Of a stretch of 64,000 bases of DNA, positions 7,781 through 56,182 are shown piece by piece (within the stretch, counting starts at the first letter, position 1; the number at the start of each line of letters is the position of its first letter). The position numbers and the translations under genes were made by a program. Source of the DNA: Prevotella sp. (GTDB lineage Bacteria; Bacteroidota; Bacteroidia; Bacteroidales; Bacteroidaceae). A model generated the notes under the pieces. It made no database searches, was not told the DNA's origin, and saw only the letters and a list, made by a program, of their open reading frames with translations. The stretch is from assembly GCA_017442825.1 (NCBI GenBank), contig JAFRYZ010000041.1, positions 124,001 to 188,000 of the forward strand, given 5' to 3'.

Positions 7781-8047
7781 GTGACAGTTATGACAGATGA
7801 CAGTTTTTATAGAGACAGGGGGGGGTGTAGGTGTGGAAAAAATGCAACAATAAACTATTTGTAAAATATTTTATTATATATATTATGATTTATATTTATT
7901 ATTATATATATACAATATTATATATATAACTATTATAAATAATTTTTACTTTCCTAGACCGTTTCTTCTTCCATCCTGCATACAGATACCCACATCAATA
8001 CAAAACTGTCATCTGTCATAACTGTCATAAGTCACAACTGTCACAAC
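7781..8047. repeat. Iteron inverted-repeat element A
   Basis: Left arm 7782-7807 and right arm 8002-8027 are perfect 26-bp inverted repeats. Each arm is built of iterated TGACAGT/TATGACAGA units 7-9 bp long. The right side continues to 8047 with more CTGTCATAA/CTGTCACAA units. The 194-bp spacer holds a G-run and then a strongly AT-rich, self-complementary core (about 7855-7950). No gene lies inside. Elements B and C share this architecture with different iterons. It could be an origin-like or mobile-element remnant; the function is unknown. Confidence 0.85.
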
Positions 8048-8057
8048 ACAAAAAAAA

Positions 8058-8079
8058 GAGACTACCCGAAGGCAGTCTC
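8058..8079 (-). terminator. Terminator of the outer-membrane barrel gene
   Basis: GAGACT pairs with AGTCTC around a short GC-closed loop. Read on the minus strand it is followed by a T-run (the A-run at 8048-8057). It ends the gene at 8102-8710. Confidence 0.7.
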
Positions 8080-8101
8080 CTTTATGTTTGTATGTTCCAG
8101 A

Positions 8102-8710
8102 TTATTTAATCGGAAGCTTGTAGCCGAGGGTGAACTGGATAACGCTGTTGCGAATATTCTTGTCCCATTTGTCCTTGTTAAGTCTCAGTACGCTGAGGTT
8201 GTAGCGAACATCGAATACAACGTTTTTGTACTCATAAGAAGCACCCAGAGGAATTGCCAAGTCAAATTTCTTTAAATATTTTTTAACATCTTCACTATCA
8301 GAATGACCATCTTCCTTCCACTTATCTTTTGCTCCCATCAGGAAACTCGGTTGGATACCTGCCTTAATAGCAAGACCTGGAATGATGTAGTAGTTAGCTA
8401 CAATAGGAATGTTCAGGTAATCCAGAGAAATGTGATCATAATCAACAGGCACGTCGAAAGCACATCCTTGTTTTGAATAGAGAGCACCAAGAGCAACACT
8501 GAACTTGTTGGCAACGACATACTCTGCCTCGATTCCGCCTGTCAAACCAACGAGCACTTTCGAATCATAACCGCGAATCTCTTTTCCGTTGACAATACTT
8601 GCCAGGTTCATACCGATTTTGGGCTGAAGGGTCAGTGTTCCAACCTCGCCCTGAGCGTTTGCTGTTAAAGCAGCGACTGCAAAAGCAGCCATCATCATAA
8701 TCTTTTTCAT
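8102..8710 (-). CDS. Outer-membrane beta-barrel protein (PorT-like)
   Basis: A 202-residue protein with a clear signal peptide (two Lys, a hydrophobic run with several Met and Ala, cleavage after ANAQ near residue 20). The mature part alternates aromatic and glycine residues in short strands, such as GLTGGIEAEY and VALGALYSKQG, and ends in a strand closing with Leu-Pro-Ile-Lys. This fits the small Bacteroidetes outer-membrane beta-barrel family (PorT type), with about eight strands. The specific role is unknown. It is a single-gene unit with its own promoter and terminator. Confidence 0.75.
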   Translation of the reverse strand: MKKIMMMAAFAVAALTANAQGEVGTLTLQPKIGMNLASIVNGKEIRGYDSKVLVGLTGGIEAEYVVANKFSVALGALYSKQGCAFDVPVDYDHISLDYLNIPIVANYYIIPGLAIKAGIQPSFLMGAKDKWKEDGHSDSEDVKKYLKKFDLAIPLGASYEYKNVVFDVRYNLSVLRLNKDKWDKNIRNSVIQFTLGYKLPIK

Positions 8711-8775
8711 AATCTTTCTACTTTTAGTTAATAATATTTTAAAAAAAACTCTACGTCATTTTCAGTCTGACGGTG

Positions 8776-8807
8776 CAAATATAAACACTTTTTTAATTAC
8801 CGCCAAA
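8776..8807 (-). promoter_or_regulatory. Promoter of the outer-membrane barrel gene
   Basis: On the minus strand a TTTG at 8804-8807 is followed after 20 bp by TATATTTG at 8776-8783, a good Bacteroidetes -33/-7 pair. The leader is about 60 nt. Confidence 0.65.
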
Positions 8808-8872
8808 CTTTTTTAAATAAATTTTTACCAAACGGGCGTTTTTTGTTTAAAATCAAGTTAAAAAGGAATGGT

Positions 8873-11065
8873 TTATCGTAGTACAAGGTCTTCCATGATG
8901 GCAATTTCCACTTCGGGAATGCCATAGGAAGCGATGAGCTGTTTGTCGTCGAAAAGTTCACGCCGCAAGGCTTCGTTGCCGTTTTCTTGGTCGGCATACT
9001 GACGCAACAAACTGGTTGCACCAGCGACATCGCCCAGGAACCAACGGCAGTAGCCGGCATTCAGGCAGTCTTCCTTCGACGGATGATGGGCAAGGATGGT
9101 TTGATATTCCTTGTCTGCCGCTTCCGCCTTATGTTGCCAAAGCAGTCCCCATGCCAGCACCCGCTGCACGCTCTTGTCGTCGGGATGTTCGTAGCGCAGG
9201 CGATAGAGTTCGTTCACAGCTTCATCGACGACCTTAAGTTTCAGCAGGCAGATGCAGCGGTTCAAGGCATAGCTCTTGCTGTCGGGATGGCGCTCGAGCA
9301 GTCGGGCATAGACATCGGCAGCCGTCTGGTAGTCTTCGTCCATGAGACTTGCCCTCGCCCACCCTTTCATTGCACGTTCGTCGTCGGGTTGATAACGGAG
9401 CGCTATGGAGAAACATTCGGCAGCTTCGTCATACTGTTCGTGATGCAACTTGCGGTAGGCAGACAACAGATAGGTGTCGAAGCGCATCGGTGCTTCCTCT
9501 TCATAATTCAATCTCAACAGGTCGAGGTCGTCCCATTGTTGCTGCTTCATCAGGAACCAGCCCACCTGAAGGCGTAGCGAAGCACAAGTGCTGATGGAGT
9601 CGTCAAAATAGAAGGAATTGACAAAGAAGTAATTCTGAGCTTTTATTTCATGAGCCGAAGCATCAGCATGCGAACCACGATCGAAGGGATTCTTCAGGTC
9701 GCCACGGCGGGAGTACACTTTGAAAAACCGGTAGAGGTCTTGCAGGTAGAGACGGCGAAGATAGTCTGGCGATTGCATATCTTCCTTCGGAACCATAGGT
9801 CCGAAGGCTTCTTCCGTACCCAACATCTCGCGGACGGAAGCCGGCAGGCGGTCGATGACTTGCGACAGGGCAATGGCAAAGGAATACTTGTCGGAGTCGC
9901 AGAAGGGACCGGCATGATGGAGGAACTGCATCAGGCGCTCGTTGCCCAACTTCTCGGACGTGGTCGCCAAGTCGGGATGGTCGGGATAGAACGGACAGAA
10001 CCAGTTGGACATCTTCGAGAAGAAAGGGAAATTCTTCATCTGGGAGAAGCCTCCGAAGTAGATGTCGGAACCAGCCTTCTGCATCTCCACCATCTTTTGG
10101 ATGCTTTCTTCCAGTTCTTCCATACGCTTGTCGGCAGCATCGGGATGCAGGATGTCTTCCATGGGGTCGTCTTCCTTCTCGGTGATGCCGAAACGTGTCA
10201 CGTTCAGGTTGTTGTTCTTCATCAGCGTCGGCATGATGTCTTCCTGTATCTGCCGGTTGTCGCGCTCGGCATTCAGGCAGAAGAACACTTGTTTCTGCAA
10301 CACCTCCAATTCATGCATCGCCTCTTCGTTTTCCGTCAGCTGGCGGATTTCTGTTTCCAGTTCGGGAAAGGCAGAGAGTGGCACTTGAGGCAGCACCAGC
10401 GCCCACCCTACCAATGCACGTTGGCGGACGGGTTCGTCGGCAGCTTGCCGATAGATGTGGAAGAGGGCGAGAAACTTGTTGGGGTCGAAGATGTTCATCG
10501 TGCCCAGCATGACGGCGCTGAGCAAGAGCAGCACATCGTTCTGGTCGATGGTGGGCGACAAGAGCAACTCTTCATAGTAGCGACGTTCGCCCTCCGACCA
10601 TTGGGGCGATGTCCAAAGGGCACAGAAAAGTCGGTTAAGGAATACCTGATGGCGCTCGTAGAGAACTTTGCGTCGCGACTGTTGTGTCTCGTTGTCTAAC
10701 GAAAGCATGGCGGCGTCGGCAACGAACCCCTCCAAGACAGAACGGATGAATTCGGGCGACAGGTGTTCACGGTCTGCCAGACGATTTGCCTCGGCATAGA
10801 GACTTTTCTCGCGAGTGAGCGACCACAAGTCTATGTCTTGCGCCAGCGCATAGAGCCGTTGTTGCAACTTGACATAGAGTTGCGGGCGCTGGGCATCGGG
10901 ATAGCCCTGTTGCATAAAGCCGAGCATCAGGTCATAGTCGTTGCGTATGGCTTCCAGACGTACACGTCCTTCGGCAAAGGGATGATCTTGCAAGAAACGG
11001 GCAGCCATCGCAAAAGCATCGGACAGGCGGCGCTGTTCTATATGTCTTCTGAGGAGATTGAGCAT
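8873..11065 (-). CDS. Tetratricopeptide-repeat protein, function unknown
   Basis: A 730-residue cytoplasmic-type protein without a signal peptide. The C-terminal third (about residues 510-700) holds consecutive helix pairs of TPR type, for example AYRKLHHEQYDEAAECF followed by ALRYQPDDERAMKGWA, then LDAxxxY/ALNRCICLL units. The N-terminal two thirds is helical and resembles Bacteroidetes-specific proteins of unknown role. TPR arrays usually scaffold protein complexes. It follows the binding lipoprotein gene on the same strand by 48 bp, so the two may be cotranscribed. Confidence 0.75.
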   Translation of the reverse strand: MLNLLRRHIEQRRLSDAFAMAARFLQDHPFAEGRVRLEAIRNDYDLMLGFMQQGYPDAQRPQLYVKLQQRLYALAQDIDLWSLTREKSLYAEANRLADREHLSPEFIRSVLEGFVADAAMLSLDNETQQSRRKVLYERHQVFLNRLFCALWTSPQWSEGERRYYEELLLSPTIDQNDVLLLLSAVMLGTMNIFDPNKFLALFHIYRQAADEPVRQRALVGWALVLPQVPLSAFPELETEIRQLTENEEAMHELEVLQKQVFFCLNAERDNRQIQEDIMPTLMKNNNLNVTRFGITEKEDDPMEDILHPDAADKRMEELEESIQKMVEMQKAGSDIYFGGFSQMKNFPFFSKMSNWFCPFYPDHPDLATTSEKLGNERLMQFLHHAGPFCDSDKYSFAIALSQVIDRLPASVREMLGTEEAFGPMVPKEDMQSPDYLRRLYLQDLYRFFKVYSRRGDLKNPFDRGSHADASAHEIKAQNYFFVNSFYFDDSISTCASLRLQVGWFLMKQQQWDDLDLLRLNYEEEAPMRFDTYLLSAYRKLHHEQYDEAAECFSIALRYQPDDERAMKGWARASLMDEDYQTAADVYARLLERHPDSKSYALNRCICLLKLKVVDEAVNELYRLRYEHPDDKSVQRVLAWGLLWQHKAEAADKEYQTILAHHPSKEDCLNAGYCRWFLGDVAGATSLLRQYADQENGNEALRRELFDDKQLIASYGIPEVEIAIMEDLVLR

Positions 11066-11113
11066 AGTGTTATTTCTTATTTTGGCCTATAGATACTATC
11101 GTTGCTATAGATA

Positions 11114-12028
11114 CTATAACGCTGCTGCCTTGTCCACATCTTTCTGGCGAGGCTCTGCCGCTATGGGGAACGAAAGTTTGGGCAGGCGGCCGATGGTCTG
11201 GTCGGTAGCATCCATATACTTCTTGATGAGCGGCGCATAATACTGCACGCCGTTGCGATTGATGCGTTCGCATGCCGCATTGTAGGCTTTGAGGAAGAGC
11301 GCCAACTCTTGGGGTCGCTTGCCTTGGGTGACATCAAGGGTGCGGAAAGCCAGCACACCCAGCTGGAGCGAGTCCTTGCGCGAGTCTTTCATCATGAAAT
11401 GACCTGCCGCGCGCGCCGCCGTAGCCTGTGGTTCGGTAAACCAGGCTGCGTCCATCTCGTTGTTGAGCATCATGTGCAGACGCACGCCAACATCGTTGAT
11501 TTGGACTTTATATGCAGGATACTTTGTCTTGGCTTCTTTCAGAGCAATGTCGGTAAGCAGGTCGGTAGCAGAATAACGCGTCATCGCCACCATCTTGTCG
11601 CTGAACTGCGACAGTTCGCGCAGACGGGCACGCTTGCCTGTAATGAGTTGCCAATAGGCATTTGTGGCGGCTACATATTTCAACACCGTACCCTTGCGCT
11701 GCATTCGTGCGGCACGAACAAGGTCGGTAACGGCCCCCTGCACGCTACCGCCTATGAGAGCGGTGTCGCAATCCATCTGGGCGGTAAAACGTTTCAACCG
11801 GATATCAATCTTCGTCGTGTCGTAAAGTTGACTGTCTTTCAGCAGATAGAGTGGCAAACAGTCTAATGTGGGCAACACAGCAACCTTGAAGGCTGCACGT
11901 TCCTCTGCCGCCAGCCGTGCTTGTTCGGCTCGAGTGCGCGCCCGTTCCTCCTCTACAGACTCGCCGCATGAGACGAACAGCAGTACTCCTAATAATATAA
12001 TAAGGTGGAAAAAATTCTTTCTTGCCAT
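11114..12028 (-). CDS. Periplasmic substrate-binding lipoprotein (type 2 fold)
   Basis: A 304-residue protein with an N-terminal hydrophobic segment ending in FVSC, so the Cys near residue 21 should be lipidated. The body resembles NMT1/SsuA-like solute-binding proteins: a start strand FKVAVLPTLDCLPLYL, a mid-segment DKMVAMTRYSATDLL and a late segment DAAWFTEPQA. No permease or ATPase gene lies beside it, so the ligand is unknown. The start ATG lies 5 nt after a TACCTTTG box, which suggests a leaderless mRNA. It diverges from radA across 69 bp. Confidence 0.75.
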   Translation of the reverse strand: MARKNFFHLIILLGVLLFVSCGESVEEERARTRAEQARLAAEERAAFKVAVLPTLDCLPLYLLKDSQLYDTTKIDIRLKRFTAQMDCDTALIGGSVQGAVTDLVRAARMQRKGTVLKYVAATNAYWQLITGKRARLRELSQFSDKMVAMTRYSATDLLTDIALKEAKTKYPAYKVQINDVGVRLHMMLNNEMDAAWFTEPQATAARAAGHFMMKDSRKDSLQLGVLAFRTLDVTQGKRPQELALFLKAYNAACERINRNGVQYYAPLIKKYMDATDQTIGRLPKLSFPIAAEPRQKDVDKAAAL

Positions 12029-12097
12029 GAGTGCAAAGGTATTAAATTATTATGAATTATGAATTATGAATTGTGAATTATTTCTTATCTTTGCAGC
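12029..12097. promoter_or_regulatory. Compact divergent promoter, two leaderless genes
   Basis: The 69-bp gap carries two -7 boxes pointing outward: TACCTTTG on the minus strand (12034-12041) for the binding lipoprotein and TATCTTTG on the plus strand (12086-12093) for radA. Each ends only 4-5 nt before the start codon. Repeated GAATTATGAATTATG units fill the middle. Confidence 0.7.
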
Positions 12098-13564
12098 ATG
12101 GCAAAAGACAAGATTGCATACGTCTGCTCGAATTGCGGACAGGAATCAGCGAAATGGATAGGAAAGTGTCCCAGTTGCGGACAGTGGAACACGTTTAAAG
12201 AGATACGCATAGCCAACGATTCGGGTACAATGGCGGCGAAATCGGCAGCCCAGCATGTACGAACGGCAAGGAACGATGCCAACAAACCCATGCGGCTGCG
12301 CGACATCTCATCGAAAGACGATCCGAGAATCGACGTGCACGACGGCGAACTGAACCGTGTGCTGGGCGGTGGACTGGTTCCTGGGAGCATTGTCCTGCTG
12401 GGCGGCGAACCTGGCATCGGCAAAAGTACACTCACCTTGCAGACTATCTTGAACATGCCGGAGAAGCGCATCCTCTATGTCAGCGGCGAAGAGAGCGCCC
12501 ACCAACTGAAGATGCGCGCCGAACGAATAAAACCAACATCGAGTCAGAACGATATCCCTACTGAACGACATCCCGACATCCCGACATCCAGCCCAAACGA
12601 CAACCCGACACAGCAACCCAACGACAACCTGTTGATTCTCACGGAAACATCCTTGGAAGCTATCTTCACCCACATCAAGGAGATACAACCAGAGATGGTG
12701 GTCATCGACTCTATACAAACCATTGCAACAGAAGACGTTGACAGCTCACCGGGAAGCATCAGTCAGGTGCGCGAGTGCGCTGCCGCCCTATTGCGCTTTG
12801 CCAAATCGAGCGGTGTTCCCGTCATCCTCATCGGCCATATCAACAAGGAGGGAACGCTGGCAGGACCGAAGATCCTGGAACATATCGTCGATACGGTTAT
12901 TCAGTTTGAGGGCGACCAGCACTATATGTATCGCATACTTCGCGCCATGAAGAACCGTTTTGGCAGTACCAGCGAACTGGGCATCTATGAAATGCGGCAA
13001 AACGGGCTGCGACAGGTGTCGAATCCTTCGGAGTTGTTGCTGACACAAGACCATGAAGGACTGTCGGGAATAGCCATCAGCAGCGCCATAGAAGGGGTGC
13101 GTCCCTTCCTCGTAGAGACGCAGGCATTGGTTTCGAGTGCTGCTTACGGCACACCACAACGTTCTGCTACAGGTTTCGACCAACGGCGCTTGAACATGCT
13201 TTTAGCCGTCTTGGAGAAGCGGGTGGGATTCAAACTGATGCAGAAGGATGTATTCCTGAACATTGCCGGCGGACTGCGGGTAACCGATTTGGCGATGGAC
13301 CTCAGCGTGATTGCAGCCGTACTGTCTTCTAACGTGGACACACCGATAGAAAACGGATGGTGTATGGCGGGCGAAGTGGGACTGAGCGGCGAGGTGCGTC
13401 CCGTCAGTCGCATAGAACAGCGCATTGCAGAAGCTGAGAAATTAGGTTTCCAGCATATCATCATCCCCAAATACAACCTGCAGGGGCTGAACACGAAGAA
13501 ATTCCAAATTGAACTGCATCCCGTCCGCAAGGTAGAGGAAGCACTCAGGGCGCTGTTTGGATAG
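12098..13564 (+). CDS. radA: DNA repair protein RadA
   Basis: A 488-residue RecA-like branch-migration ATPase used in recombination. The N-terminal zinc finger has Cys at residues 10, 13, 24 and 27. Walker A GEPGIGKST is at 103-111, the RadA-specific MKNRFG motif follows, and a Lon-protease-like domain closes the protein. Residues 146-177 are an odd Pro/Asn/Asp/Thr-rich insert between AERIK and LLILTETS, where other RadA proteins continue directly. Its DNA (12533-12628) is a degenerate period-9 repeat. The start is 4 nt after a -7 box, so it is probably leaderless. Confidence 0.95.
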   Translation: MAKDKIAYVCSNCGQESAKWIGKCPSCGQWNTFKEIRIANDSGTMAAKSAAQHVRTARNDANKPMRLRDISSKDDPRIDVHDGELNRVLGGGLVPGSIVLLGGEPGIGKSTLTLQTILNMPEKRILYVSGEESAHQLKMRAERIKPTSSQNDIPTERHPDIPTSSPNDNPTQQPNDNLLILTETSLEAIFTHIKEIQPEMVVIDSIQTIATEDVDSSPGSISQVRECAAALLRFAKSSGVPVILIGHINKEGTLAGPKILEHIVDTVIQFEGDQHYMYRILRAMKNRFGSTSELGIYEMRQNGLRQVSNPSELLLTQDHEGLSGIAISSAIEGVRPFLVETQALVSSAAYGTPQRSATGFDQRRLNMLLAVLEKRVGFKLMQKDVFLNIAGGLRVTDLAMDLSVIAAVLSSNVDTPIENGWCMAGEVGLSGEVRPVSRIEQRIAEAEKLGFQHIIIPKYNLQGLNTKKFQIELHPVRKVEEALRALFG

Positions 13565-13622
13565 AGAGCCTAGAAAATCTAGATAATCTAGGAAATCCTA
13601 GAAAGTCCTAGAAATCCCTAGA
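13565..13622. repeat. Degenerate short repeat CCTAGAAAnT
   Basis: Seven or so copies of a 9-10-nt unit (CTAGAAAAT, CTAGATAAT, CTAGGAAAT, CTAGAAAGT) fill the gap between radA and the convergent DUF3078 gene. The last copy supplies the DUF3078 stop codon (TAG on the minus strand at 13618-13620). Confidence 0.85.
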
Positions 13623-14934
13623 AAGAATAATTAAACCCAATAGAAGCAAACTCTTTGAACTGCCAGTAGCCGTGCTTGTCGTCGCGGCTGACGTTGTCGT
13701 CGAAACGAGGATAGACGAAGAGCTGTGCCGCCAACCATTTGTTCAACTGAAAGACAAATGTGTTTTCCCATTCAAACACAGCATTCTTATAGGTGGTATA
13801 GCCGTACATACGCGTCTTCCACTTCAGCATATCGTTGAACTCCCATGTGAGGTCTGCCGTAAACAACGAACCATAGTCGTGCAAGGCATGCCTCCCTTCT
13901 TTAATACCCAAGCGGGTAGAAAGGTCGAGGTTGCGCGTATATTTCAGATTATAGGCTATCGGAGCCAGATGGACGGTTCCTTTCAGCTTGTGGTTCATCC
14001 AATCCATATCGTAATCCATACCGAGCGAAAGGTTCAGCGAACCAGGCGCAAGGAAGTCGGCATAGACGGTGCGGTCGTTGCTCTTATAGCTGTGGGTAAA
14101 CTGCGTCTGGGCTATCAGTTGCAAAGTGTAATACCAATGTTTGGAAGCGTGCAGGCCCAATTTGGAGGTCAGGCGAATCAGGTCTTCATTGGTCTTCATA
14201 CGGTGGATGGTGTCAGAACGAGTGTTCTGCAAACCCAATTTCAGTTCAAGCTTGTTGTCCCACTTCACTTTCTGCTTGTTGTTGTAGTTGGCTTCCATCG
14301 TCACTACACCCAGCATGGCATAGCTGCTTTCACCTCCTTTATACCAATTGTCGGAGATGTAGTTCTGCATGAATTGTAAAGAATAATCACCTTTTATCTT
14401 CCAAAAATTGGGTTTGGTAACCACTACTTTCATCGGCACAATATCGATGGTTTGCGGCAACTCTTCAACCTTGCCGACCAGTTCTGCTTCCTGACGAATA
14501 GGAGTAGTAATATTCACATCGGCAGGTCCTGCCTTTTCCATCTTTTTCTGGGTATTCAGCACCCACTCTGGATGTTTCAAGTAAACATCTAACAAAGATG
14601 AGTTTATCGAACTGTTATACAATGGTTTATCGCTCTCCGTGCCACCAATACTCATCATCTCGTTTGTCCAGGTATGATAGAAGGTGGTAGGCAGAAACAA
14701 CTGCGAAAACTCACCACGCATCCCTGAGGAGCGGAGTGTGTTCGATGAGGTTTGTAATCGCTGTCGGACTGTAGCCAAAGAGTCGGTATAGGCCTTCACA
14801 AAAGAAGACACTTCTATCTTGTCAGCACTTTTCCTATTCGAAAAAGCATTTTCCTGAGCCTTCGAAGGTATCGCCATCATCAACAGGAATAGCGTTATCA
14901 GTATGTTATTGAGGATTGTCTGCATCCGTATCAT
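13618..14934 (-). CDS. DUF3078-like outer-membrane protein
   Basis: A 438-residue protein with a signal peptide ending in SKAQ near residue 26. The last 270 residues are amphipathic strands typical of an outer-membrane barrel, and the protein ends in a Phe-rich strand (FNYSF), the usual insertion signal. It resembles the Bacteroidetes DUF3078 family, whose function is unknown. An ATG 9 nt further in (14925) is an equally good start. It diverges from yidC, and the shared gap contains the palindromic promoter repeat. Confidence 0.75.
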   Translation of the reverse strand: MIRMQTILNNILITLFLLMMAIPSKAQENAFSNRKSADKIEVSSFVKAYTDSLATVRQRLQTSSNTLRSSGMRGEFSQLFLPTTFYHTWTNEMMSIGGTESDKPLYNSSINSSLLDVYLKHPEWVLNTQKKMEKAGPADVNITTPIRQEAELVGKVEELPQTIDIVPMKVVVTKPNFWKIKGDYSLQFMQNYISDNWYKGGESSYAMLGVVTMEANYNNKQKVKWDNKLELKLGLQNTRSDTIHRMKTNEDLIRLTSKLGLHASKHWYYTLQLIAQTQFTHSYKSNDRTVYADFLAPGSLNLSLGMDYDMDWMNHKLKGTVHLAPIAYNLKYTRNLDLSTRLGIKEGRHALHDYGSLFTADLTWEFNDMLKWKTRMYGYTTYKNAVFEWENTFVFQLNKWLAAQLFVYPRFDDNVSRDDKHGYWQFKEFASIGFNYSF

Positions 14935-14954
14935 GTCATTCTATTCATCTGAAA

Positions 14955-15127: not shown

Positions 15128-15164
15128 CCTTGTTATCAGAATAATAAAACGTTAATCAAACAAT

Positions 15165-17105: not shown

Positions 17106-17112
17106 CAATAAA

Positions 17113-26220: not shown

Positions 26221-26352
26221 TTATAATATATCCCTTGCTATCAAGGCGCAAGCTTCGGCATCGGCGAGGGCGTAGTGGTGGTTCTTCATAATGAAACCGA
26301 AAGCCTCTGCGACGGTGTCGTCGACTTAGGTTTCACCTTGCGAAGTTACAAG
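26221..26352 (-). pseudogene. Remnant of a DnaQ-like 3'-5' exonuclease
   Basis: On the minus strand, 34 codons before the stop at 26221-26223 read VDDTVAEAFGF, KNHHYALADAEACALIA and RDIL. This is the C-terminal Exo III motif (H-x-A-x-x-D-A) of DEDDh exonucleases. An in-frame stop at 26326-26328 precedes it, and the rest of the gene is gone. Element B lies about 50 bp further upstream. The piece is too short to be active. Confidence 0.65.
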
Positions 26353-26399
26353 TTTTTTGGGGGGGAAAGCAAGGGAAAGGAGAAGATTTTTGAGAAAAC

Positions 26400-26564
26400 G
26401 TATAAAATGTATAACGTATAACCGTATAACTACTTTTGATTTTTTTGTGCAGAGAGAAAATCCCTATATAATAATGTACGCGCGAATTAATTATATAAGG
26501 TGTTTTTTCCAGGCACCTTTTTTTTCGCTATGTGTTATACGGTTATACGTTATACATTTTATAC
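26400..26564. repeat. Iteron inverted-repeat element B
   Basis: Perfect 31-bp inverted arms lie at 26400-26430 and 26534-26564. They are made of GTATAAC/GTATAACC units 7-9 bp long. The 103-bp spacer is AT-rich and holds a small hairpin (AGGTG...CACCT, about 26498-26517). No gene lies inside. It has the same plan as elements A and C with unrelated iterons, and it sits beside the exonuclease remnant, as if a larger element had decayed. Confidence 0.88.
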
Positions 26565-26711
26565 ACTTCGCCTCGGAAAATGAAAGAATATGTCTTTTCC
26601 AGCAAAAAGCGGACTTTACGTTTGCAACGGAAAAGTGTAAAGATAGCGGAAAAGGTGCAGGGCGCCCGAAACTATCTGGAAAAAGTACTTGCATTCGCCT
26701 TGAAAAAGCAG

Positions 26712-47466: not shown

Positions 47467-47585
47467 ATTCGTTCTTTACTATTATATCTTATATGTTAAA
47501 GATAAGACGGACAGAACCGCCACTTGTCACTCCCAACGCTTGGAAACTTTTTAGTTGAAAATTATGGTGTTTCTGCTTTTTTGTG

Positions 47586-47593
47586 TACTTTTG
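47586..47593 (+). promoter_or_regulatory. -7 box of the second toxin-antitoxin pair
   Basis: TACTTTTG lies 25 nt before the antitoxin ATG. Confidence 0.55.
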
Positions 47594-47618
47594 CAATCGA
47601 ACAATATATTTCAAGATT

Positions 47619-47855
47619 ATGCGCATGCAAAATATCACAACCGACAGCCCTTATGATACCAACGTCATAGAGCGTAGCAAAACCGCAAGCCAAGCCTGTA
47701 CAAACAGACAAGATGCTGGCAACGTTATTCCTTATACGATGGAAGAATTAAATGCACGCATAGACGAAGCAGAGGCTGAAATAGAACGTAACGAGGGAAA
47801 GACGTTCAGCGAAATGATGAACGGATTCAGAAAGGAACTTTCATGGCTTTTGTAA
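47619..47855 (+). CDS. Antitoxin of a ParE-like pair
   Basis: A 78-residue small protein. The N-terminal 40 residues are polar. The C-terminal half is an acidic helix (MEELNARIDEAEAEIERNEG) followed by FSEMMNGFRKEL, typical of antitoxin tails that wrap a RelE/ParE-fold toxin. The last 13 nt overlap the toxin start, showing translational coupling. I do not recognise its DNA-binding class. ATG 47619 is chosen over an earlier frame start through the promoter. Confidence 0.7.
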   Translation: MRMQNITTDSPYDTNVIERSKTASQACTNRQDAGNVIPYTMEELNARIDEAEAEIERNEGKTFSEMMNGFRKELSWLL

Positions 47856-48163
47856 AATGGCAAAAACGTGCTGAAAACGAACTCTATCGGCTCCTTGTAG
47901 AAGGCTTTCAGGAGTATGGAGAGACAACAGCCAACAAGTTTGCTGAAAGAGTTGCTTACCTGAATACCGCATTAGAGCGATATCCTGAAATCGGATATCC
48001 AGAACCATTATTAAAAGGCAGGAAAAAACTATATAGAGCTTACCCTATTAACAAGCGGTATAAACTAATTTATTACTTTGCAGAAAGTTCCGACACCATT
48101 CATATTGCCGACATCTGGGACACAAGAAGAGAACCGACTTTTCTTACGCTCAGAATAAAATAA
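47843..48163 (+). CDS. ParE/RelE-superfamily toxin
   Basis: A 106-residue basic protein with the family arrangement VKWQKRAENELYRLLVEGFQ, YGETTANKFAERV, a turn at YPEIGYPEPLL, KLYRAYPINKRYKLIYYF and IHIADIWDTRREP. The strand pair and the Arg-rich end fit ParE/RelE toxins; whether the target is gyrase or mRNA cannot be told. A hairpin terminator follows the stop. Confidence 0.8.
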   Translation: MAFVKWQKRAENELYRLLVEGFQEYGETTANKFAERVAYLNTALERYPEIGYPEPLLKGRKKLYRAYPINKRYKLIYYFAESSDTIHIADIWDTRREPTFLTLRIK

Positions 48164-48164
48164 G

Positions 48165-48203: not shown

Positions 48204-48219
48204 TTCACATCACTTCTCT

Positions 48220-49338: not shown

Positions 49339-49343
49339 TTCAT

Positions 49344-49670
49344 GTATATTTTTGATGTGCAAAGGTACGATTAAGCGAGGACAAAAACAAAGAACTTGTT
49401 CTTTTTTTGTCGAGCGAGAGTATCTTCGGCGATAGCCAAAGGTACGATTAAGTGAGTGAAAAGCAAAATTTATTTTAGCTTTTCCGAACGAGAGTACCTT
49501 CGACAAAGGTCAAAGATACGATTAAGCGAGGACAAAAACAAAGAACTTGTTCTTTTTTTGTCGAGCGTGAGTACCTTCGATGAAGGTCAAAGGTACGATT
49601 AAGTGAGTGAAAAGCAAAATTTATTTTATCTTTTCCGAACGAAAGAACCATTAAAGGCAAACTAAGAGTT
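49344..49670. repeat. Promoter-bearing palindromic repeat array, four units
   Basis: Four units of about 73 bp alternate in two forms, giving a 146-bp period. Units share TACGATTAAGCGAGGACAAA, AACAAAGAACTTGTTC and GTCGAGCG(A/T)GAGTACCTTCG. The left end supplies the minus-strand -7 box of mrp (GCAAAGGTA at about 49359-49367). Boxes in the inner units may be extra promoters. The array occupies most of the 483-bp mrp-rpsF gap. Confidence 0.85.
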
Positions 49671-49722
49671 AATATTTGTTAAGTATTGTATTGCAACCAC
49701 CTGACATTAAGTATTATTTTCG

Positions 49723-49821
49723 TACCTTTGCATCCGCATTTCGCGCGAGCATACTATATAAGTATCATTTTGCGCGGTTTGCACTGTTTTTTTATTTAAT
49801 CATTTTTTATTTCAAAGTAGT
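49723..49821 (+). promoter_or_regulatory. rpsF promoter and structured leader
   Basis: TACCTTTG at 49723-49730 is the -7 box. The leader can fold: CGCGC (49742-49746) pairs with GCGCG (49772-49776), and inside ATACT (49751-49755) pairs with AGTAT (49761-49765). Ribosomal protein operons with bS6 and bS18 are often controlled by a leader that binds the bS6:bS18 pair. Whether this fold is that site is uncertain. Confidence 0.45.
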
Positions 49822-50166
49822 ATGAATCAATACGAAACCGTTTTCATTTTGACTCCCGTTTTGTCTGATGATCAGGCAAAGGAAACGGTCGCTAAGTTCA
49901 AGACACTGCTCACCGACAATGGTGCAGAGATTGTGAACGAAGAGGCCTGGGGACTGAAGAAGCTGGCTTATCAGATCCAGAAGAAGACATCAGGTTTCTA
50001 CAACCTGATGGAATTCAAGGCAGAGCCGGCACTCATCGACAAACTCGAAGTAGCATTCCGCCGCGACGAGAAAGTAATTCGTTTCATGACTGTTAAACTC
50101 GACAAGTATGCCGTTGCTTACTCAGAGAAGCGCCGTGCAAAGCTTGGCAAAAAAGAGGAGGCTTAA
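49822..50166 (+). CDS. rpsF: 30S ribosomal protein bS6
   Basis: A 114-residue small-subunit protein, first of rpsF-rpsR-rplI. The start [20 protein letters not shown], the segment [20 protein letters not shown] and the end in basic [11 protein letters not shown] fit bS6. It pairs with bS18 on the platform. In Bacteroidia, bS6, bS18 and bS21 help hide the anti-SD tail of 16S rRNA. Confidence 0.97.
50156..50161 (+). promoter_or_regulatory. Shine-Dalgarno sequence of rpsR
   Basis: AGGAGG, within the last codons of rpsF and 8 nt before the rpsR ATG. Strong SD sequences are rare in this window. Confidence 0.75.
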
Positions 50167-50169
50167 ACC

Positions 50170-50439
50170 ATGGCAGAGCAGAAATCAGAAATCCGTTATT
50201 TGAACGCTCCTTCTATCGATACAAAGAAGAAGAAGTATTGCCGTTTCAAGAAGAGCGGCATCAAGTACATCGACTACAAAGATCCCGAGTTCCTGAAGAA
50301 GTTCCTCAACGAGCAGGGTAAGATTCTTCCCCGTCGTATTACCGGAACCTCTCTGAAGTATCAGCGTCGCGTGGCACAGGCTGTTAAGCGTGCCCGTCAG
50401 ATTGCACTGCTTCCTTACGTAACCGATTTGATGAAGTAA
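50170..50439 (+). CDS. rpsR: 30S ribosomal protein bS18
   Basis: An 89-residue protein with the bS18 core [19 protein letters not shown], then LLNE-type helix and [20 protein letters not shown], ending in [14 protein letters not shown]. It begins 3 nt after the rpsF stop. bS18 contacts the anti-SD region in Bacteroidia ribosomes. Confidence 0.97.
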
Positions 50440-50444
50440 TAAAG

Positions 50445-50451
50445 AAGGAGG
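50445..50451 (+). promoter_or_regulatory. Shine-Dalgarno sequence of rplI
   Basis: AAGGAGG, a full-strength SD sequence, lies 7 nt before the rplI ATG. It is the clearest SD in the window. Confidence 0.8.
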
Positions 50452-50458
50452 AAACAGA

Positions 50459-51046
50459 ATGGAATTAATACTGAAAGAAGATATTATCGGTCTTGGATAC
50501 AAGAACGATATCGTGAATGTAAAGTCAGGCTACGGCCGAAACTATCTCATTCCCCAGCAGAAGGCAGTCATCGCTTCTCCCTCAGCCAAGAAGATTTTGG
50601 CAGAGAACCTGAAGCAACAGGCACACAAGATTGCCGCCCAGAAGGCAGCTGCAGAGGATAAGGCAAAGGCTTTCGAGGGTGTTTCTTTGGAAATCCCTGC
50701 AAAAGTTGCCGTCACCGGTCAGCTTTATGGTTCAGTCGGTGCAGCTCAGGTTGTTGAGGCTCTTGCAGCCAAAGGCATCGAGGTTGACCGCAAGATTGTC
50801 ACCATGAAGGAAGCCAAGAAAGTAGGAGAATACGAGGCTGTTGTTCACTTCCACAAGGAAGTAGAAGTTAAGGTTCCCGTATTGGTTGTTGCCGAGAACC
50901 CCGAGGCTTTAGCTCCTGCCAAGGTGGAGGAAGCTCCCAAGGCTGTAGAGGCTGTTGAAGAAGCACCCGTAGCTGTTGAAGAGGCTCCCGTTGTTGAAGA
51001 AGCTCCCGCAGCAGAAGAGGCTGAGGACGAAGCAGCCGAGGCTTAA
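50459..51046 (+). CDS. rplI: 50S ribosomal protein bL9
   Basis: A 195-residue protein. The N-terminal domain (MELILKEDIIGLGYKNDIV, then GYGRNYLIPQQKAV) and the long helix plus C-terminal domain up to about residue 147 fit bL9. The last 45 residues are an Ala/Glu/Val/Pro-rich acidic tail (repeated EEAPV) not found in most bL9 proteins, which are about 150 residues. Its DNA is a degenerate repeat of GAAGCTCCC/GTTGAAGAA. Confidence 0.95.
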   Translation: MELILKEDIIGLGYKNDIVNVKSGYGRNYLIPQQKAVIASPSAKKILAENLKQQAHKIAAQKAAAEDKAKAFEGVSLEIPAKVAVTGQLYGSVGAAQVVEALAAKGIEVDRKIVTMKEAKKVGEYEAVVHFHKEVEVKVPVLVVAENPEALAPAKVEEAPKAVEAVEEAPVAVEEAPVVEEAPAAEEAEDEAAEA

Positions 51047-51098
51047 TCCCAAAGAAGTAAATTCTTTTCGCACTGTAAAACAGCGTTTCGATAGGAAT

Positions 51099-51132
51099 CC
51101 CAGTCATCGAATCTGATGACTGGGATTTTTCT
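51099..51132 (+). terminator. Terminator of rpsF-rpsR-rplI
   Basis: CCCAGTCATC pairs with GATGACTGGG around GAATCT, followed by ATTTTTCT. Confidence 0.9.
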
Positions 51133-51145
51133 ATCAATCTCTCTC

Positions 51146-51244
51146 TTAGAGGTTAAAGCAGCTCGTGACACCCAGTGTCGTCGCAATCGCAGTCAGGATG
51201 GCTATCGCCGTCTGAATGATAAATTTCCAAGTTTCTTTTTTCAT
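51146..51244 (-). CDS. Smalltalk-family small membrane peptide
   Basis: A 32-residue ORF (MKKETWKFIIQT, then AIAILTAIATTLGVTSC, ending FNL). It matches the smalltalk protein family of Bacteroidales, tiny peptides encoded beside HU-like and amidase or phage-type genes. It has one hydrophobic segment of about 20 residues and a near-terminal Cys after VTS. Its function is unknown. A holin-like or anchoring role would be speculation. It is first on the left side of the accessory island. Confidence 0.85.
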   Translation of the reverse strand: MKKETWKFIIQTAIAILTAIATTLGVTSCFNL

Positions 51245-51269
51245 AATTGTAAAGGTTTAAGGTTGAAAG

Positions 51270-51615
51270 CCCCCAGCCCCCCAGCCCCCTAAAGGGGGTG
51301 TTTAAGGTCAAAGGTCGGAGCCCCCCAGCCCCCTAAAGGGGGTGTTTAAGGGTCTAAGGTTGAAAGCCCCCAGCCCCCTAAAGGGGGAAGATAGGTTGCC
51401 TCACTCACCAGTCATCTCTTTCCCACTTTCCCCGCGACTGTGCCCCACTCGCGCGCCAAGCGAGGCTCAGTTAGCCCCCCAGCCCCCTAAAGGGGGTGAA
51501 AGCCCCCAAGCCCCCTAAAGGGGGTGTTTGTGGTCGGAGGGCTTTGGCCTCCCCCCTTCAGGGGGGATAAGAGGGGATGGGGGTGTCCTTCTTCCCCCCT
51601 TCAGGGGGGATTAGA
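51270..51615. repeat. G/C-rich palindrome array
   Basis: Five copies of AGCCCCCTAAAGGGGGT-type palindromes (near 51283, 51328, 51371, 51481, 51509) and two of CCCCCCTTCAGGGGGGAT followed by AAGAGGGG or TAGAGGGG (near 51551 and 51595). They fill the gap between the smalltalk ORF and the HU-like gene. The last copy runs up to the HU stop codon. The structure resembles REP sequences. Confidence 0.85.
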
Positions 51616-51623
51616 GGGGGGCT

Positions 51624-52058
51624 TTAGGGCTGCTCCTCCTTGTCCACGTGGTACATGCCGTACTCTTCCACGGTGACGCCCGTCAGGAGCGACTTCACGC
51701 GTTTGCCGTCTGCGCTCTTCTTCACGGTGGGCTGGAAGATGATGTGCACACTCTTCACGTTCTTCGTCGGCGTGAAGTCCTTCGCCGAGTCTGCCGGCGA
51801 GGTGGCGATGCCGCACTTGAATCCGCCGAATCCGTCGAGGATGACGCGCTCTCCAGCCAGGAGGTGCTTGCGCATCTGGGTCACCAGTTCGGTGATCACT
51901 CCGAGCACGTCGCTCTTGGTCAGCGAGCACTTCTCTTCGATGTCCTCAGCAATCTGCTCCGAGCGGATGACGCCTACGGGCACCGCGCGAGCGTACCACT
52001 TACCGCGGGTCCTTGACCCTTCTCTGTTGTTCTGAACTAATTTGTAACGTACTGACAT
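51624..52058 (-). CDS. HU-like DNA-binding protein of the island type
   Basis: A 144-residue protein starting at ATG 52058 (SVRYKLVQNNREGSRTRGKW). An extended N-terminus precedes the DNABII fold: IAEDIEEKCSLTKSDVLGVI as helices 1 and 2, then GERVILDGFGGFKCGIA with the beta-arm entrance. It is longer than chromosomal HU (92 residues at 62228). Bacteroidales islands commonly pair this HU type with smalltalk, VirE and amidase genes. It may organise the island's own DNA; that is inference. Confidence 0.85.
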   Translation of the reverse strand: MSVRYKLVQNNREGSRTRGKWYARAVPVGVIRSEQIAEDIEEKCSLTKSDVLGVITELVTQMRKHLLAGERVILDGFGGFKCGIATSPADSAKDFTPTKNVKSVHIIFQPTVKKSADGKRVKSLLTGVTVEEYGMYHVDKEEQP

Positions 52059-52249
52059 AATGTTAAAGTTTAAGTTAATGGTTATGGCTAACAGTTCTCT
52101 TGTCCGGACGGTGCAAAAGTACAACACATCGAAGCGCAACACCAAATCCGGCGTGCCCTGCAGTGCAAAAATCTGTTAAAGAAACGGGTGTTTGGCAACA
52201 AATTTATAACACTACTGATTGTCAGCGAGTTACGGATGGCATATTGCAA

Positions 52250-52474
52250 AATGCAACATTGCAACATTGCAACATTGTTGCATTAAGCATTTTCCGACAT
52301 GCAAAATGGGCACGTATGCTAATAGGTTATTATAATATATAATTATATTTATATATTATAATAAAATTACTATTATTACATTCTATCACATTTTTATATT
52401 ACTTTTCTTACAATTTTCAACCCCACATATATAGAAATTCCTTAATGCAACAATGTTGCAATGCAACAATGTTA
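52250..52474. repeat. Iteron inverted-repeat element C
   Basis: Perfect 23-bp inverted arms lie at 52265-52287 and 52441-52463, extended outward by more 8-bp units (GCAACATT, GTTGCATT). The 153-bp spacer contains an AT-rich near-palindrome (about 52327-52364) and a pyrimidine-rich stretch ending CCCCACAT. It lies between the HU-like gene and the WG gene inside the island. A third direct copy of the arm is at 56123-56145. Confidence 0.88.
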
Positions 52475-52523
52475 CAAACCGTGTTTTGCCGAGGGGTTCC
52501 CTGTTTTTTTCTGAAAAGTTTTT

Positions 52524-52554
52524 TTTGAAGGTAAACAGGAATTGCTTATATTTG
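52524..52554 (+). promoter_or_regulatory. Promoter of the WG-repeat gene
   Basis: TTTG at 52524-52527 and TATATTTG at 52547-52554 with 19-bp spacing. The start codon is 42 nt downstream. Confidence 0.7.
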
Positions 52555-52596
52555 CAGTTGACAACTTAAATCATCACATTAAAAACCGCAATACGT

Positions 52597-53937
52597 ATGA
52601 AACGATTGGTCATTTGTTGTGTGGCGCTGGCAGGCGTGCTGAGTATGAAGGCGCAGGTGCCGGCAGCCAGTAATCCTGTATGCGCCGAATGTGGCGGAAA
52701 CGAGCAACGCAAAGAAGGTGGACGGTGGGTCCAGGTTTCCGATCACAAGTCGTGGTGTCCTATCGGCAAGAAGATTGCCGAGGCTAAAGCCAAAGCCAAA
52801 GCAGCAGAGTGGTCGCCTGACTTCAGTTCCATTGAGTATCAGTATGGCAACGGCGTGATGTGCGATGAATGCGAACGGGTGCAAGGTCATACTTCGGACT
52901 GTACGATAGGCTTTTTTCAAAAGAAAATCTATAAACTCGCCGAACTTGACCATTCCAAGTGGTGGGCGGGATCAGTAGAGTCGTATAAGCTTTCGGTTCG
53001 TAACCGGGAGGAGAATATCCGCAATGCTGCCCGACGAGGACGTGAAGAAAGGGCGAAGGCTCAACAGGCCCGAACATCCCAGCAACCCACCTCTGCAACG
53101 CCCCAGCGCCAGGTCTCCACCAAGCTGAAGGACCATCAGCCTATACCTGAGCAACGCCCTGCAGCTCAGCCAGATCCGAACATCACCCTGATTCCCTATA
53201 TGGGCAGGATGCCGGCGCCGGTCATTCCTACGACGGAAATGACGGTGATCAGGGAAACAGGACCTGACGGTACCGTCTATGACAAGCACATCAAGTTTCA
53301 CGACCGGTATTCTGCCGTTGCCTACTGTAAGATGAATCCCAGCGGCTCTGAACAGTGGACGATGTTTTCATCGGATGGCAAAAAGTTAGGAATTTTCAGC
53401 AAGGTCTATACCGTCGAACGGGACAAGTTCGACAAATACTTTATTGCCCAAGACGCACGCGGCTATTGGGGTGTCTATAACCTCAGGGGTGATGCGAAAC
53501 TGCCTCATGAATATGAAGAAATCGAGGCTCTTGCCGTCGATGACAATCTCGGCTACCATCGCCTGCTGCTGAAATGCTCTCGCAACGGAAAATGGGGCAT
53601 CTATGGCGCAGACATCGCCTGCGAATGGGACGACATCTGGTTCGAGGACATCAACCCCGGACTCATCTTCCGCGTCCTGAAAGACGGCAAGTACGGCATC
53701 GTGGAACAGTACAAGATCCCCTTCATCCCGTGCGAATACACCTACCTGGAAAAGGTGGTCTATCAGGGTGGCGGAGCTGAATACTACATCGTCAGCAAGG
53801 ACGGACAGCAATACGGTGTTTATCGCCGCTATGAGAAATGGCGGGACGAGCAGCTGTCGCTCTGCGAAGCGCGAGACGCCATCAAAGCCGACGTCACACA
53901 ATACAAGCAGAAAATGAGCAAGAAAAGGAACCCATAA
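52597..53937 (+). CDS. Secreted WG-repeat protein with Cys motifs
   Basis: A 446-residue protein. The signal peptide ends in MKAQ near residue 20. Two Cys clusters follow (CAECGG near 28 and CPIG near 51; CDECERVQGH near 88 and CTIG near 102). After a Gln/Arg/Ala-rich stretch, four WG-type repeats occupy about residues 280-420 (GYWGVYNLRG, GKWGIYGADI, GKYGIVEQYK, QQYGVYRRYE). WG repeats form beta-propeller or solenoid binding surfaces, mostly on secreted proteins. It lies in the island downstream of element C. The function is unknown. Confidence 0.75.
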   Translation: MKRLVICCVALAGVLSMKAQVPAASNPVCAECGGNEQRKEGGRWVQVSDHKSWCPIGKKIAEAKAKAKAAEWSPDFSSIEYQYGNGVMCDECERVQGHTSDCTIGFFQKKIYKLAELDHSKWWAGSVESYKLSVRNREENIRNAARRGREERAKAQQARTSQQPTSATPQRQVSTKLKDHQPIPEQRPAAQPDPNITLIPYMGRMPAPVIPTTEMTVIRETGPDGTVYDKHIKFHDRYSAVAYCKMNPSGSEQWTMFSSDGKKLGIFSKVYTVERDKFDKYFIAQDARGYWGVYNLRGDAKLPHEYEEIEALAVDDNLGYHRLLLKCSRNGKWGIYGADIACEWDDIWFEDINPGLIFRVLKDGKYGIVEQYKIPFIPCEYTYLEKVVYQGGGAEYYIVSKDGQQYGVYRRYEKWRDEQLSLCEARDAIKADVTQYKQKMSKKRNP

Positions 53938-53976
53938 CATCGGCGCACCGAACCGTTTGCCCTCCCCACATAGCAG

Positions 53977-54100
53977 ATGACGCGAGAAGAGATGATAGCT
54001 GCAGGACTGACACCTGAGGAGACGAAACACAACAGTCACCGCAGGGCGTTCTTCCACGACTACAACCGCCCCGGACTGTATATGATCACCCTGGTGACAG
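53977..54100 (+). pseudogene. Fragment resembling a REP-associated tyrosine transposase
   Basis: From ATG 53977 about 41 codons read MTREEMIAAGLTPEET, then HRRAFFHDYNRPGLYMITLV. This resembles the start of RAYT/Y1 transposases (HRR...DY...G.YfiT). The homology stops near 54098. The frame then runs into primase sequence read in another frame (shifted by one), so the transposase is truncated and not functional. The His-hydrophobic-His and Tyr catalytic motifs are missing. Confidence 0.6.
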
Positions 54101-54121
54101 AAGCCCATCACCGACGAGGGG

Positions 54122-56122
54122 ATGATTGCCGAACTGAAGCGTCTGGGCATCTACTTGGTACATGTGACGCCTTCGACGGAGGGTTTCCGCCTGTTCTTCG
54201 CGGTGCCTCACGGCATGACGCTGGAGGAGGCTCAACGGTGGATGTCTCAGCAGCTGGGCGATGCCGACTACGACGGTTGCGTGAAGGACTTGGCGCGTTG
54301 CTCGTTTGTGGTGCCGAGAGACTATCTCCTTTATTTGGATGAGGAAAACCTGTTTAAAGCCCCCCTCGCGTCCCCCCTGAAGGGGGGAAGAACTGAAGCC
54401 CCACAAGCCCCTCTCGCGTCCCCCCTGAAGGGGGGAAGAACTGAAGCCCCTCAAGCCCCCCAAGCATTCTCTCCGTCAGGACTTCCCCCCTTCAGGGGGG
54501 ACGCGAGAGGGGCTCTTTCCTTCAAAGGTATCCCTTATGCTTCTATCATTCGTGAGTGGTTTGTGCGCAACGGCGGCGAGCCTCAGGAGGGCGAGCGGAA
54601 TGTGAAGTTGCACAAGCTGGCGGTGAACCTGCGGGCTATCTGCGACAACAAGCGTGAGGTGCTGATGCAGGTGATGCCCCGCTTCGGACTCTCAGATCAG
54701 GAACTGAGGAGCATCGTCGATTCTGCCTGCAAGGAGGAGCCGAAGGGTGTGTCGAAGGTGATGCAGCAGATTGTGGATCATGAAGAGCGGAGGATGAGGA
54801 ATGATGAATCATGGGACGAGTCGGAAACGTCGGAGGAAACCCGTTCCTCACTTCTTAACGCTTCGTTGAAGAAGGCGCTCCCCATAGGGCTCCGCGAGTC
54901 GCTGAAAGGGGTGCCTGAGTCGATGCACATGCCTGTGTTGTGCTCGGTGATGCCGATAGCGGCGGCGTATGCCGACCAGGTGGAGGTGGAGTATTGCGAC
55001 GGCAACCGCCAGCGGCTGGGGCTGATGTCGATTATCAGAGGTGAGCAGGCGAGCGGCAAGAGCGTATGTAAGAATGTGGTGGATGTGTGGAAGCGCCAGT
55101 TGGACGAGGAGGATGCGCTTGCCCGCAAGCGTGAGGAGGAATGGAAGGAGCGCAAGAAGAGTCGCAAGGCGAACGAGAAGGCTCCCGAAGACCCGAAGGT
55201 GCTCATCCGTATGGTGCCCGTAACGGTGTCGTGCTCTACGCTCCTGAAACGGTTCAAGAACTCCAACGGACACACGCTCTACTCCTTCGGTGAGGAACTC
55301 GACACGCTCCGCAAGACCAACGGCGCCGGCTCGTGGTCGTCGAAGTATGACATCTATCGCGTGGCGTTCGACAACGGCGAATGGGGTCAGGACTACAATT
55401 CGGACCAGGCGGAGTCGGGTGTGGTGAAGGTGGCCTACAACTGGACGATGCTGGGTACGGACGGCGCTATGAAGAAGTGTTTCAAGAGTGACAACATAGA
55501 GAACGGACTGTCTTCGCGAATACTCGTTGCCGAGATGCCCGACGCGTCGTTTGCCAAGATGCCGAAGTTCGGACGGCGTTCGGCTGATGATGAGGCAAGG
55601 ATTCAGGAGGCTGTCACCCGTCTGCGCTCGTATAGCGGATTCGTGGATACGCCCCGTCTGCGCAAAGCCATAGAGACGTGGGTGGAGCAGAAGCGCGTGG
55701 AGGCGGCTAAGGACATCGACCGCGTGAAGGACACCTACCGCAAGCGTGCGGCGGTCATCGGGTTCAGGTGCGGAGTGATACATCATCTGTTGGAGCAAGA
55801 GCATGAAAGCGCCAGAGAGTCTAAACGATGCCTGGACTTCGCCCTGATGATGGCGGAATATTGTCTCCAGCAGCAGATAAGTGCCTTCGGCGAGGCGTTG
55901 CAGAACGAATATGTCAGCGCACAAGGCGAGTGCCAGCGATATGGTGCCAACCACAGCGTCTTCGACCAGTTGCCGCCAACGTTCATGATGGATGACCTGC
56001 GGGCAAAGAAACGCGGTTTCTGTACTGACCAATCCTTACGTTCTATCGTCTCACGCTGGCGACGCGACGGATGGATAGAGAAGATTGACTCTAAACATTG
56101 GAAGAAAAATGTAACATTGTAA
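54122..56122 (+). CDS. VirE-N/DUF3987 primase-helicase, 5'-truncated
   Basis: A 666-residue protein from ATG 54122. Residues 1-78 are the rear part of the BT4734/VirE-N domain (LGIYLVHVTPSTEGFRLFF, VKDLARCSFVVPRDYLLYLDE); the domain's front half is missing. Residues about 79-132 are a repeat-encoded linker of PLASPLKGGR units. Residues about 133-215 resemble a primase C-terminal region. DUF3987 helicase-like ATPase follows (Walker A GEQASGKS near residue 307, later AYNWTMLGTDGAMKK and LSSRILVAEMPDA). Its last codons and stop lie in the third iteron copy. It may be a decayed island replication protein. Confidence 0.75.
   Translation: MIAELKRLGIYLVHVTPSTEGFRLFFAVPHGMTLEEAQRWMSQQLGDADYDGCVKDLARCSFVVPRDYLLYLDEENLFKAPLASPLKGGRTEAPQAPLASPLKGGRTEAPQAPQAFSPSGLPPFRGDARGALSFKGIPYASIIREWFVRNGGEPQEGERNVKLHKLAVNLRAICDNKREVLMQVMPRFGLSDQELRSIVDSACKEEPKGVSKVMQQIVDHEERRMRNDESWDESETSEETRSSLLNASLKKALPIGLRESLKGVPESMHMPVLCSVMPIAAAYADQVEVEYCDGNRQRLGLMSIIRGEQASGKSVCKNVVDVWKRQLDEEDALARKREEEWKERKKSRKANEKAPEDPKVLIRMVPVTVSCSTLLKRFKNSNGHTLYSFGEELDTLRKTNGAGSWSSKYDIYRVAFDNGEWGQDYNSDQAESGVVKVAYNWTMLGTDGAMKKCFKSDNIENGLSSRILVAEMPDASFAKMPKFGRRSADDEARIQEAVTRLRSYSGFVDTPRLRKAIETWVEQKRVEAAKDIDRVKDTYRKRAAVIGFRCGVIHHLLEQEHESARESKRCLDFALMMAEYCLQQQISAFGEALQNEYVSAQGECQRYGANHSVFDQLPPTFMMDDLRAKKRGFCTDQSLRSIVSRWRRDGWIEKIDSKHWKKNVTL
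54357..54514. repeat. G/C-rich palindromes inside the primase gene
   Basis: Two direct copies (54357-54390 and 54405-54438, 48 bp apart) read AAGCCCC, CTCGCGT and CCCCCCTGAAGGGGGG. An inverted copy lies at 54482-54514. All are in frame, encoding APLASPLKGGRTE twice and GLPPFRGDARGA. They match the intergenic palindromes of the same island. Confidence 0.85.
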
Positions 56123-56145
56123 CATTGCAACATTGTTGCATTAAG
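56112..56145. repeat. Third copy of the element C iteron arm
   Basis: The 23-bp arm sequence of element C recurs at 56123-56145 in direct orientation, preceded by further AACATTGT units. The primase stop codon lies inside it. Confidence 0.9.
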
Positions 56146-56182
56146 CACATTCGTGCATGAACTTACAAAAAGATACAATACT

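Follow-up and report, generated by a model that had tools for sequence, protein, structure and literature searches.

Inverted iteron pairs as putative origins of DUF3987 primase islands in Prevotella

Introduction

Origins of the phage-inducible chromosomal islands (PICIs) of E. coli are outlined as two sets of iterons flanking an AT-rich region (PMC6092414), and the alpha protein of phage P4 is summarised as binding the repeats of its origin through a winged helix (PMC4234260). The phage-inducible chromosomal minimalist islands (PICMIs), minimal satellites of the Vibrionaceae, were sought by means of primase models for DUF3987 and DUF5906, and deletion of prim is described as leaving fewer circular copies, the gene being needed for full copy number (PMC10803314), whilst for DUF3987 a helicase role in mobile elements has been predicted (PMC5862659). 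Here we describe three inverted pairs of iteron arrays, elements A, B and C, in a 64,000-nucleotide stretch of a Prevotella sp. genome (hereafter the window; GCA_017442825.1, contig JAFRYZ010000041.1, positions 124,001 to 188,000), the last of which lies with a DUF3987 primase-helicase gene, and follow the same architecture through other genomes. No paper on this architecture was found among those searched, as judged by titles and abstract openings and with many subscription papers outside the search.

Results

Within this genus the inverted pairs probably serve, though with real room for doubt, a family of chromosomal islands as their replication origins; C would be the origin of a decayed island, and A and B would be orphans. 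In this model the DUF3987 primase-helicase encoded by an island would recognise the iteron word of that island both at the pair and at a third array where its gene ends, melt the AT-rich spacer and start replication by priming, in the manner of a phage satellite. The anatomy and the matching of words are well supported; origin function is our best reading of the pairs, and we infer from sequence that the word is bound, the spacer opened and the island replicated, as well as any excision or transfer. The window lies on contig C1 of an assembly of 2.31 Mb in 69 contigs that is 79% complete, and it holds the following pairs.

7782-8043, no strand: element A, an orphan inverted iteron pair with the word TGACAG, between rho and an outer-membrane protein gene
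26317-26658, no strand: element B, an orphan unit with the word GTATAAC, one of three copies in the genome
52137-52479, no strand: element C, a putative origin unit with the word GCAACATT and an AT-rich spacer between its arms

The exact arms of A (7782-7807 and 8002-8027) are 26 bp each and 194 bp apart, the right array continuing to 8043, and the genes on either side are convergent. Those of B (26400-26430 and 26534-26564) are 31 bp each and 103 bp apart. Element C has a far arm at approximately 52252-52287 and a near arm at approximately 52441-52479, with exact arms of 23 bp (52265-52287 and 52441-52463) lying 153 bp apart within a 43-bp arm that is 86% complementary. Both the B and the C pair are embedded in larger repeated units, at approximately 26317-26658 and 52137-52479 respectively. 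All three have arms made of tandem words around AT-rich, gene-free spacers, as the initial annotation had described, and their exact arms of 26, 31 and 23 bp compare with a longest inverted arm of 17 bp, at 40-400 bp spacing, across 100 dinucleotide-shuffled copies of the window. The likeness to an origin that it drew holds at the level of anatomy, paired arms and an AT-rich spacer being present. An Rfam scan of the window returned no family at the gathering threshold.

The association of such pairs with primase genes was assessed in 60 DUF3987 loci taken from matches to the window primase, relatives of which were present in 25 of the 60 genomes searched (maximum 22 matches per genome), and in 20 control stretches totalling 398 kb. 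The detector called a pair where two or more six-base words each occurred at least twice on one strand and, as complements, at least twice again 50-350 bp beyond, around a spacer with an AT content of 60% or more; it was altered once, after 20 of the 60 loci had been seen. A pair was detected in 28 of the 60 loci versus 1 of the 20 controls (Fisher 4e-4), counts that are not independent, several loci coming from the same genome and the controls from nine genomes. The single positive control stretch carried two GGAGTG pairs. Pairs were found in 14 of the 20 early loci and 14 of the 40 later ones, the latter still differing from controls (Fisher 0.009), and in 20 of the 31 loci in which the primase had 7 kb or more of upstream sequence, whilst none appeared when each of the 60 loci was shuffled once. 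The proposed link between pairs and primases is thus above chance within the genus. Its extension to all Bacteroidales was not supported, since outside the genus only one pair (L323) was seen in 18 DUF3987 loci from 15 genomes, several with primases of a shorter type. The VirE-N domain, also invoked at the outset, was found by Pfam in none of four primases (the truncated window protein, L036, L153 and L207), and the tie of the pairs is therefore to DUF3987. The pair of L323, at 11586-11725 near a DUF3987 gene of another genus, has the word TGGCACAA.

Each island has its own iteron word, in keeping with the suggestion of a single structural class using different words. Across 33 islands with a DUF3987 gene and an upstream pair (26 from the 60 loci, the window, and six chosen by the A word), word similarity correlated with primase identity (rho 0.28, attained by 1 of 2000 permutations), and did so without the six A-chosen islands (rho 0.23, attained by 4 of 2000). 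Leaving those six aside, the word was shared by 9 of 18 island pairs at 70% primase identity or more, 1 of 45 at 35-70% and 7 of 288 below 35%. Iterons matched to the primase had been predicted, and both this trend and a third array sharing the word of the pair agree with it. The islands combine, as an iteron replicon would, direct repeats matched to a putative initiator, the primase, with an adjoining AT-rich region.

The island of element C consists of the following features.

51624-52145, minus strand: HU-HIG gene (Pfam PF18291, E 3.3e-23), directed away from the island
52597-53937, plus strand: open reading frame of 446 aa without a Pfam family, between the C pair and the primase
54122-56122, plus strand: DUF3987 primase-helicase gene (Pfam PF13148, E 1.5e-8), its N-terminus shorter than that of homologues in the alignment
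56106-56147, plus strand: third array of the C word, across the DUF3987 stop codon, a direct repeat of the C far arm
56153-56653, plus strand: DUF5675 gene (Pfam PF18925, E 2.4e-33), on the right side of the island

The third array was assessed in 30 islands, L150 and L166 being omitted as the primase end lay outside the locus and L047 for its broken gene. The region of the primase stop matched the far arm (score of at least 16) in 18 of the 30 and the near arm in none; foreign words reached that score there in 21 of 870 comparisons, 5000 trials with permuted words never brought more than 6 of the 30 islands to it, and without the six A-chosen islands the count was 14 of 26. That one word is kept at three sites kilobases apart within an island speaks less for linkage than for a shared binding protein, or for copying from array to array. 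In phage P4, a second cis site carries the repeats of the P4 origin.

The same geometry admits another explanation, which we regard as unlikely: the arrays may be recombination or attachment sites rather than origins, a circle having integrated at a chromosomal array, with solitary pairs as sites or scars. The far arm and the third array, as direct repeats, do bound the spacer, near arm, cargo and primase, and the repeat extends over approximately 30 bp in L041, L048 and L221. However, this leaves the inverted near arm and the AT-rich spacer unexplained; no single-array empty site was seen, though no systematic search was made; and no PF00589 integrase was found on contigs C1, C5, C8 or C50, serine recombinases not having been searched for in the genome. 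PF00589 integrases occur on six other contigs.

In 19 of the islands with a DUF3987 gene and a pair, an HU gene is located beyond the far arm, directed away from the pair in all 19 and 79-1425 bp from that arm, which bears out the expected association with HU genes; that C itself sits with a primase-helicase and an HU-like gene is confirmed by the DUF3987 and HU-HIG matches. To the right of the primase there is a DUF5675 gene (the window, L153) or an endolysin-like gene (L043). A far arm at this distance from the start of a divergent HU gene would also suit arrays that are operators of a DNA-binding regulator of the island genes (HU, cargo or primase) with no role in replication. We hold this to be rather improbable, as element A lies between convergent genes, orphan pairs are distant from any island, and the third array is at the end of the primase gene and not before a shared promoter. 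Two arrangements of arrays are recorded here in their own right: in L052 (13142-13551) four array clusters approximately 120 bp apart precede the primase, as if the origin unit had been multiplied, and in L186 (9674-10014) and L185 (9817-10096) there are concentric, nested inverted pairs with differing words.

Element C we read as the putative origin of an island that has decayed, with a primase missing its N-terminus. The window primase starts approximately 95 residues later than its L192 homologue in the alignment, and its open frame contains C-rich inverted repeats (54365-54514, exact up to 33 bp) that are like repetitive extragenic palindromic (REP) elements in appearance. A short frame before it (53977-54110), in which a Pfam scan found no family, resembles the start of a REP-associated transposase. 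The C-terminus of the primase looks like a winged helix as judged by eye from the alignment. Two DUF3987 genes are present in the genome: that of the window, and a gene of another type (L001) on contig C3, where an integrase is also found.

Solitary units

Element B is a dispersed, non-coding unit of approximately 340 bp whose three copies in the genome are 92% alike, and in their alignment 0 of 62 arm columns vary versus 38 of 253 elsewhere (one-sided Fisher 1.3e-4). Contigs C50 and C8 each end in partial C sequence, representing either one copy or two, with changes in 0 of 36 and 0 of 39 arm columns and in 10 of 174 and 3 of 126 columns elsewhere; the stretches beside them (L168, L169) contain no HU or DUF3987 gene. 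A was found once in the genome and is absent after rho in all 29 relatives examined, these being the loci cut from 93 genomes with a match, 27 of them with 900 bp to inspect. A is therefore not ordinary conserved intergenic DNA within the genus; such conservation, like the lack of any link with primase islands, would have told against the initial annotation, and neither was seen within the genus. Its view of A and B as gene-less remnants stands in part: neither has an adjacent primase and B is a dispersed repeat, whilst the mechanism it proposed gained no support.

The A-arm pattern occurs in 57 stretches of the species collection. Their titles give Prevotella, Prevotellaceae, Bacteroidaceae or Bacteroidales as the source, and a ruminant stomach compartment is named in 20 of them. 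Among 20 loci fetched by the A arm, some with short flanks, six had a DUF3987 gene, four an HU gene only and ten neither; the detector was silent in two of these ten, one having too short a spacer and the other lying at a contig end. The loci L164 and L165 have an orphan at the same place in two species. In L333 part of the HU gene, the pair and the end of DUF5675 remain and cargo and primase are gone, and L157 resembles a deletion form of L158 from the same genome, so that islands can evidently shrink to their origin. The same 385 bp recur at 86% identity at a different place in the genome of L333 (L182), where no surrounding HU or DUF5675 gene was found, and orphan copies thus also move. We accordingly read A, B and the further copies of C as candidate orphan origins that either stayed behind when an island was lost or dispersed as short units; no primase with the A or B word, or with that of the further C copies, was found in the 79%-complete assembly.

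The dispersal of B also raises the possibility, to which we give little weight, that the solitary units are miniature transposons moved by an arm-recognising transposase. In a further genome, L171 (9577-10192) and L172 are two copies of an orphan pair enclosed by outer inverted repeats of approximately 70 bp, as such a unit would have. In B and C, however, homology extends beyond the arms and ends elsewhere, the arms not being the unit ends and terminal inverted repeats being absent there; no target duplication was noticed by eye, and identical arms belong to primase-bearing islands. The orphans L148 and L167 have three arms, one of them directly repeated. That the pairs are chance or ordinary intergenic repeats is scarcely credible, for although the window has other short tandem arrays and one control stretch its two GGAGTG pairs, the shuffles of window and loci, the control stretches, the invariant B arms and the third-array permutations all speak against it.

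Cargo and other features

Cargo proteins were scanned in 13 islands, picked mostly by size and covering part of the genes, with the large cargo genes of L162 excluded. Restriction or other defence families were found in eight: type III restriction-modification (RM) in L153; type IIG RM, a specificity subunit and an AAA protein in L046; type IIG RM and PDC-S02 in L043; a C5 methyltransferase with Eco29kI- and BsaWI-type nucleases in L036; an N6/N4 methyltransferase in L048; HSDR_N in L198; AAA_21 in L040; and capP and an IrrE-like protein in L154. None was present among the scanned proteins of L041, L042, L044, L158 and L162, the L158 cargo including an antirepressor. Neither an integrase nor an excision factor was recognised among the island proteins scanned, which again represent part of the island genes.

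A plasmid or phage source of the islands was considered and rejected on the scarcity of matches: the window primase had none in the plasmid collection and two among phage records, at approximately 24% identity; two related loci were present among eight candidate stretches of viral_contigs, where the arm patterns gave one match for A, none for B and three C-like.

Elsewhere in the window, tandem arrays lacking an inverted partner occur at 3482-3530 (GTCCTTAA), 12566-12589 (CGACATCC) and 13597-13624 (CCTAGAAA), and two small adjoining frames at 47583-48163 look like a RelE-type toxin-antitoxin pair.

Discussion

Several observations weigh against the pairs being island origins. No pair was detected in 32 of the 60 DUF3987 loci, many with short flanks, nor in 11 of the 31 with at least 7 kb upstream; HU genes are also present in 4 of the 60 DUF3987 loci, ones without a pair, and in 2 of the 20 controls; and 12 of the 30 islands have no third array, including the clade L052, L194, L207, L210, L211 and L230, in which the pair lies approximately 1.5 kb upstream and neither HU gene nor third array was found. 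The correlation of word with primase may arise in part from linkage, and a search of solved structures with the primase gave a best E of 0.062, which is not useful and leaves a DNA-binding domain unsupported.

Going beyond the origin reading, we put forward as a tentative and rather doubtful proposal that the genus carries a large and so far unnamed family of defence islands, satellite-like but without an integrase, in which a primase and its three arrays change word together, so that several islands could coexist in one cell without cross-talk. Their orphan origins, approximately 340 bp long, would survive or disperse as minimal passengers that a word-matched island copies in trans. If true, a satellite-like class of defence island would be added to an abundant gut and rumen genus, the word-matched pair and third array would offer a sequence handle for locating such islands, and many natural primase-origin pairs would be available for studying joint change of binding word and protein. 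The most unusual part of the finding is the orphan origins, which would either be passengers of minimal size or record, like fossils, islands since lost.

Comparison with known systems

The solitary units recall PINSR of Prevotella intermedia in being short, dispersed, non-coding repeats of a Prevotella genome, but PINSR is 188 bp long, without terminal inverted repeats, and the part of the report available mentions no link to a primase (PMC4755523). With P4-like elements the islands share a single protein combining primase and helicase functions; as those accounts outline it, however, the primase of P4 alpha is of the bacterial type, and integrase and capsid genes, which were not seen here, are part of P4-like elements (PMC8628076, PMC4234260). 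The likeness to PICMIs lies in a DUF3987/DUF5906 primase model, defence cargo and direct repeats at the edges, whereas PICMIs are defined, in the description available, by an integrase, AlpA and a fis site; the present islands lie at different genes and showed none of these in the parts scanned (PMC10803314). Like satellites, the islands have a replication gene of their own, that encoding DUF3987. As neither integrase nor excision factor was found in the contigs and island proteins scanned, we do not file them as members of the phage satellites, although on this evidence they would appear to work like them. Set against the PICI origins as outlined, the islands differ in the third array at the primase stop, in their HU and DUF5675 content, in the existence of solitary origins and in that no integrase or AlpA was recognised in them, and they resemble them in pairs with a spacer of at least 60% AT at 28 of 60 DUF3987 loci, a likeness of anatomy (PMC6092414).

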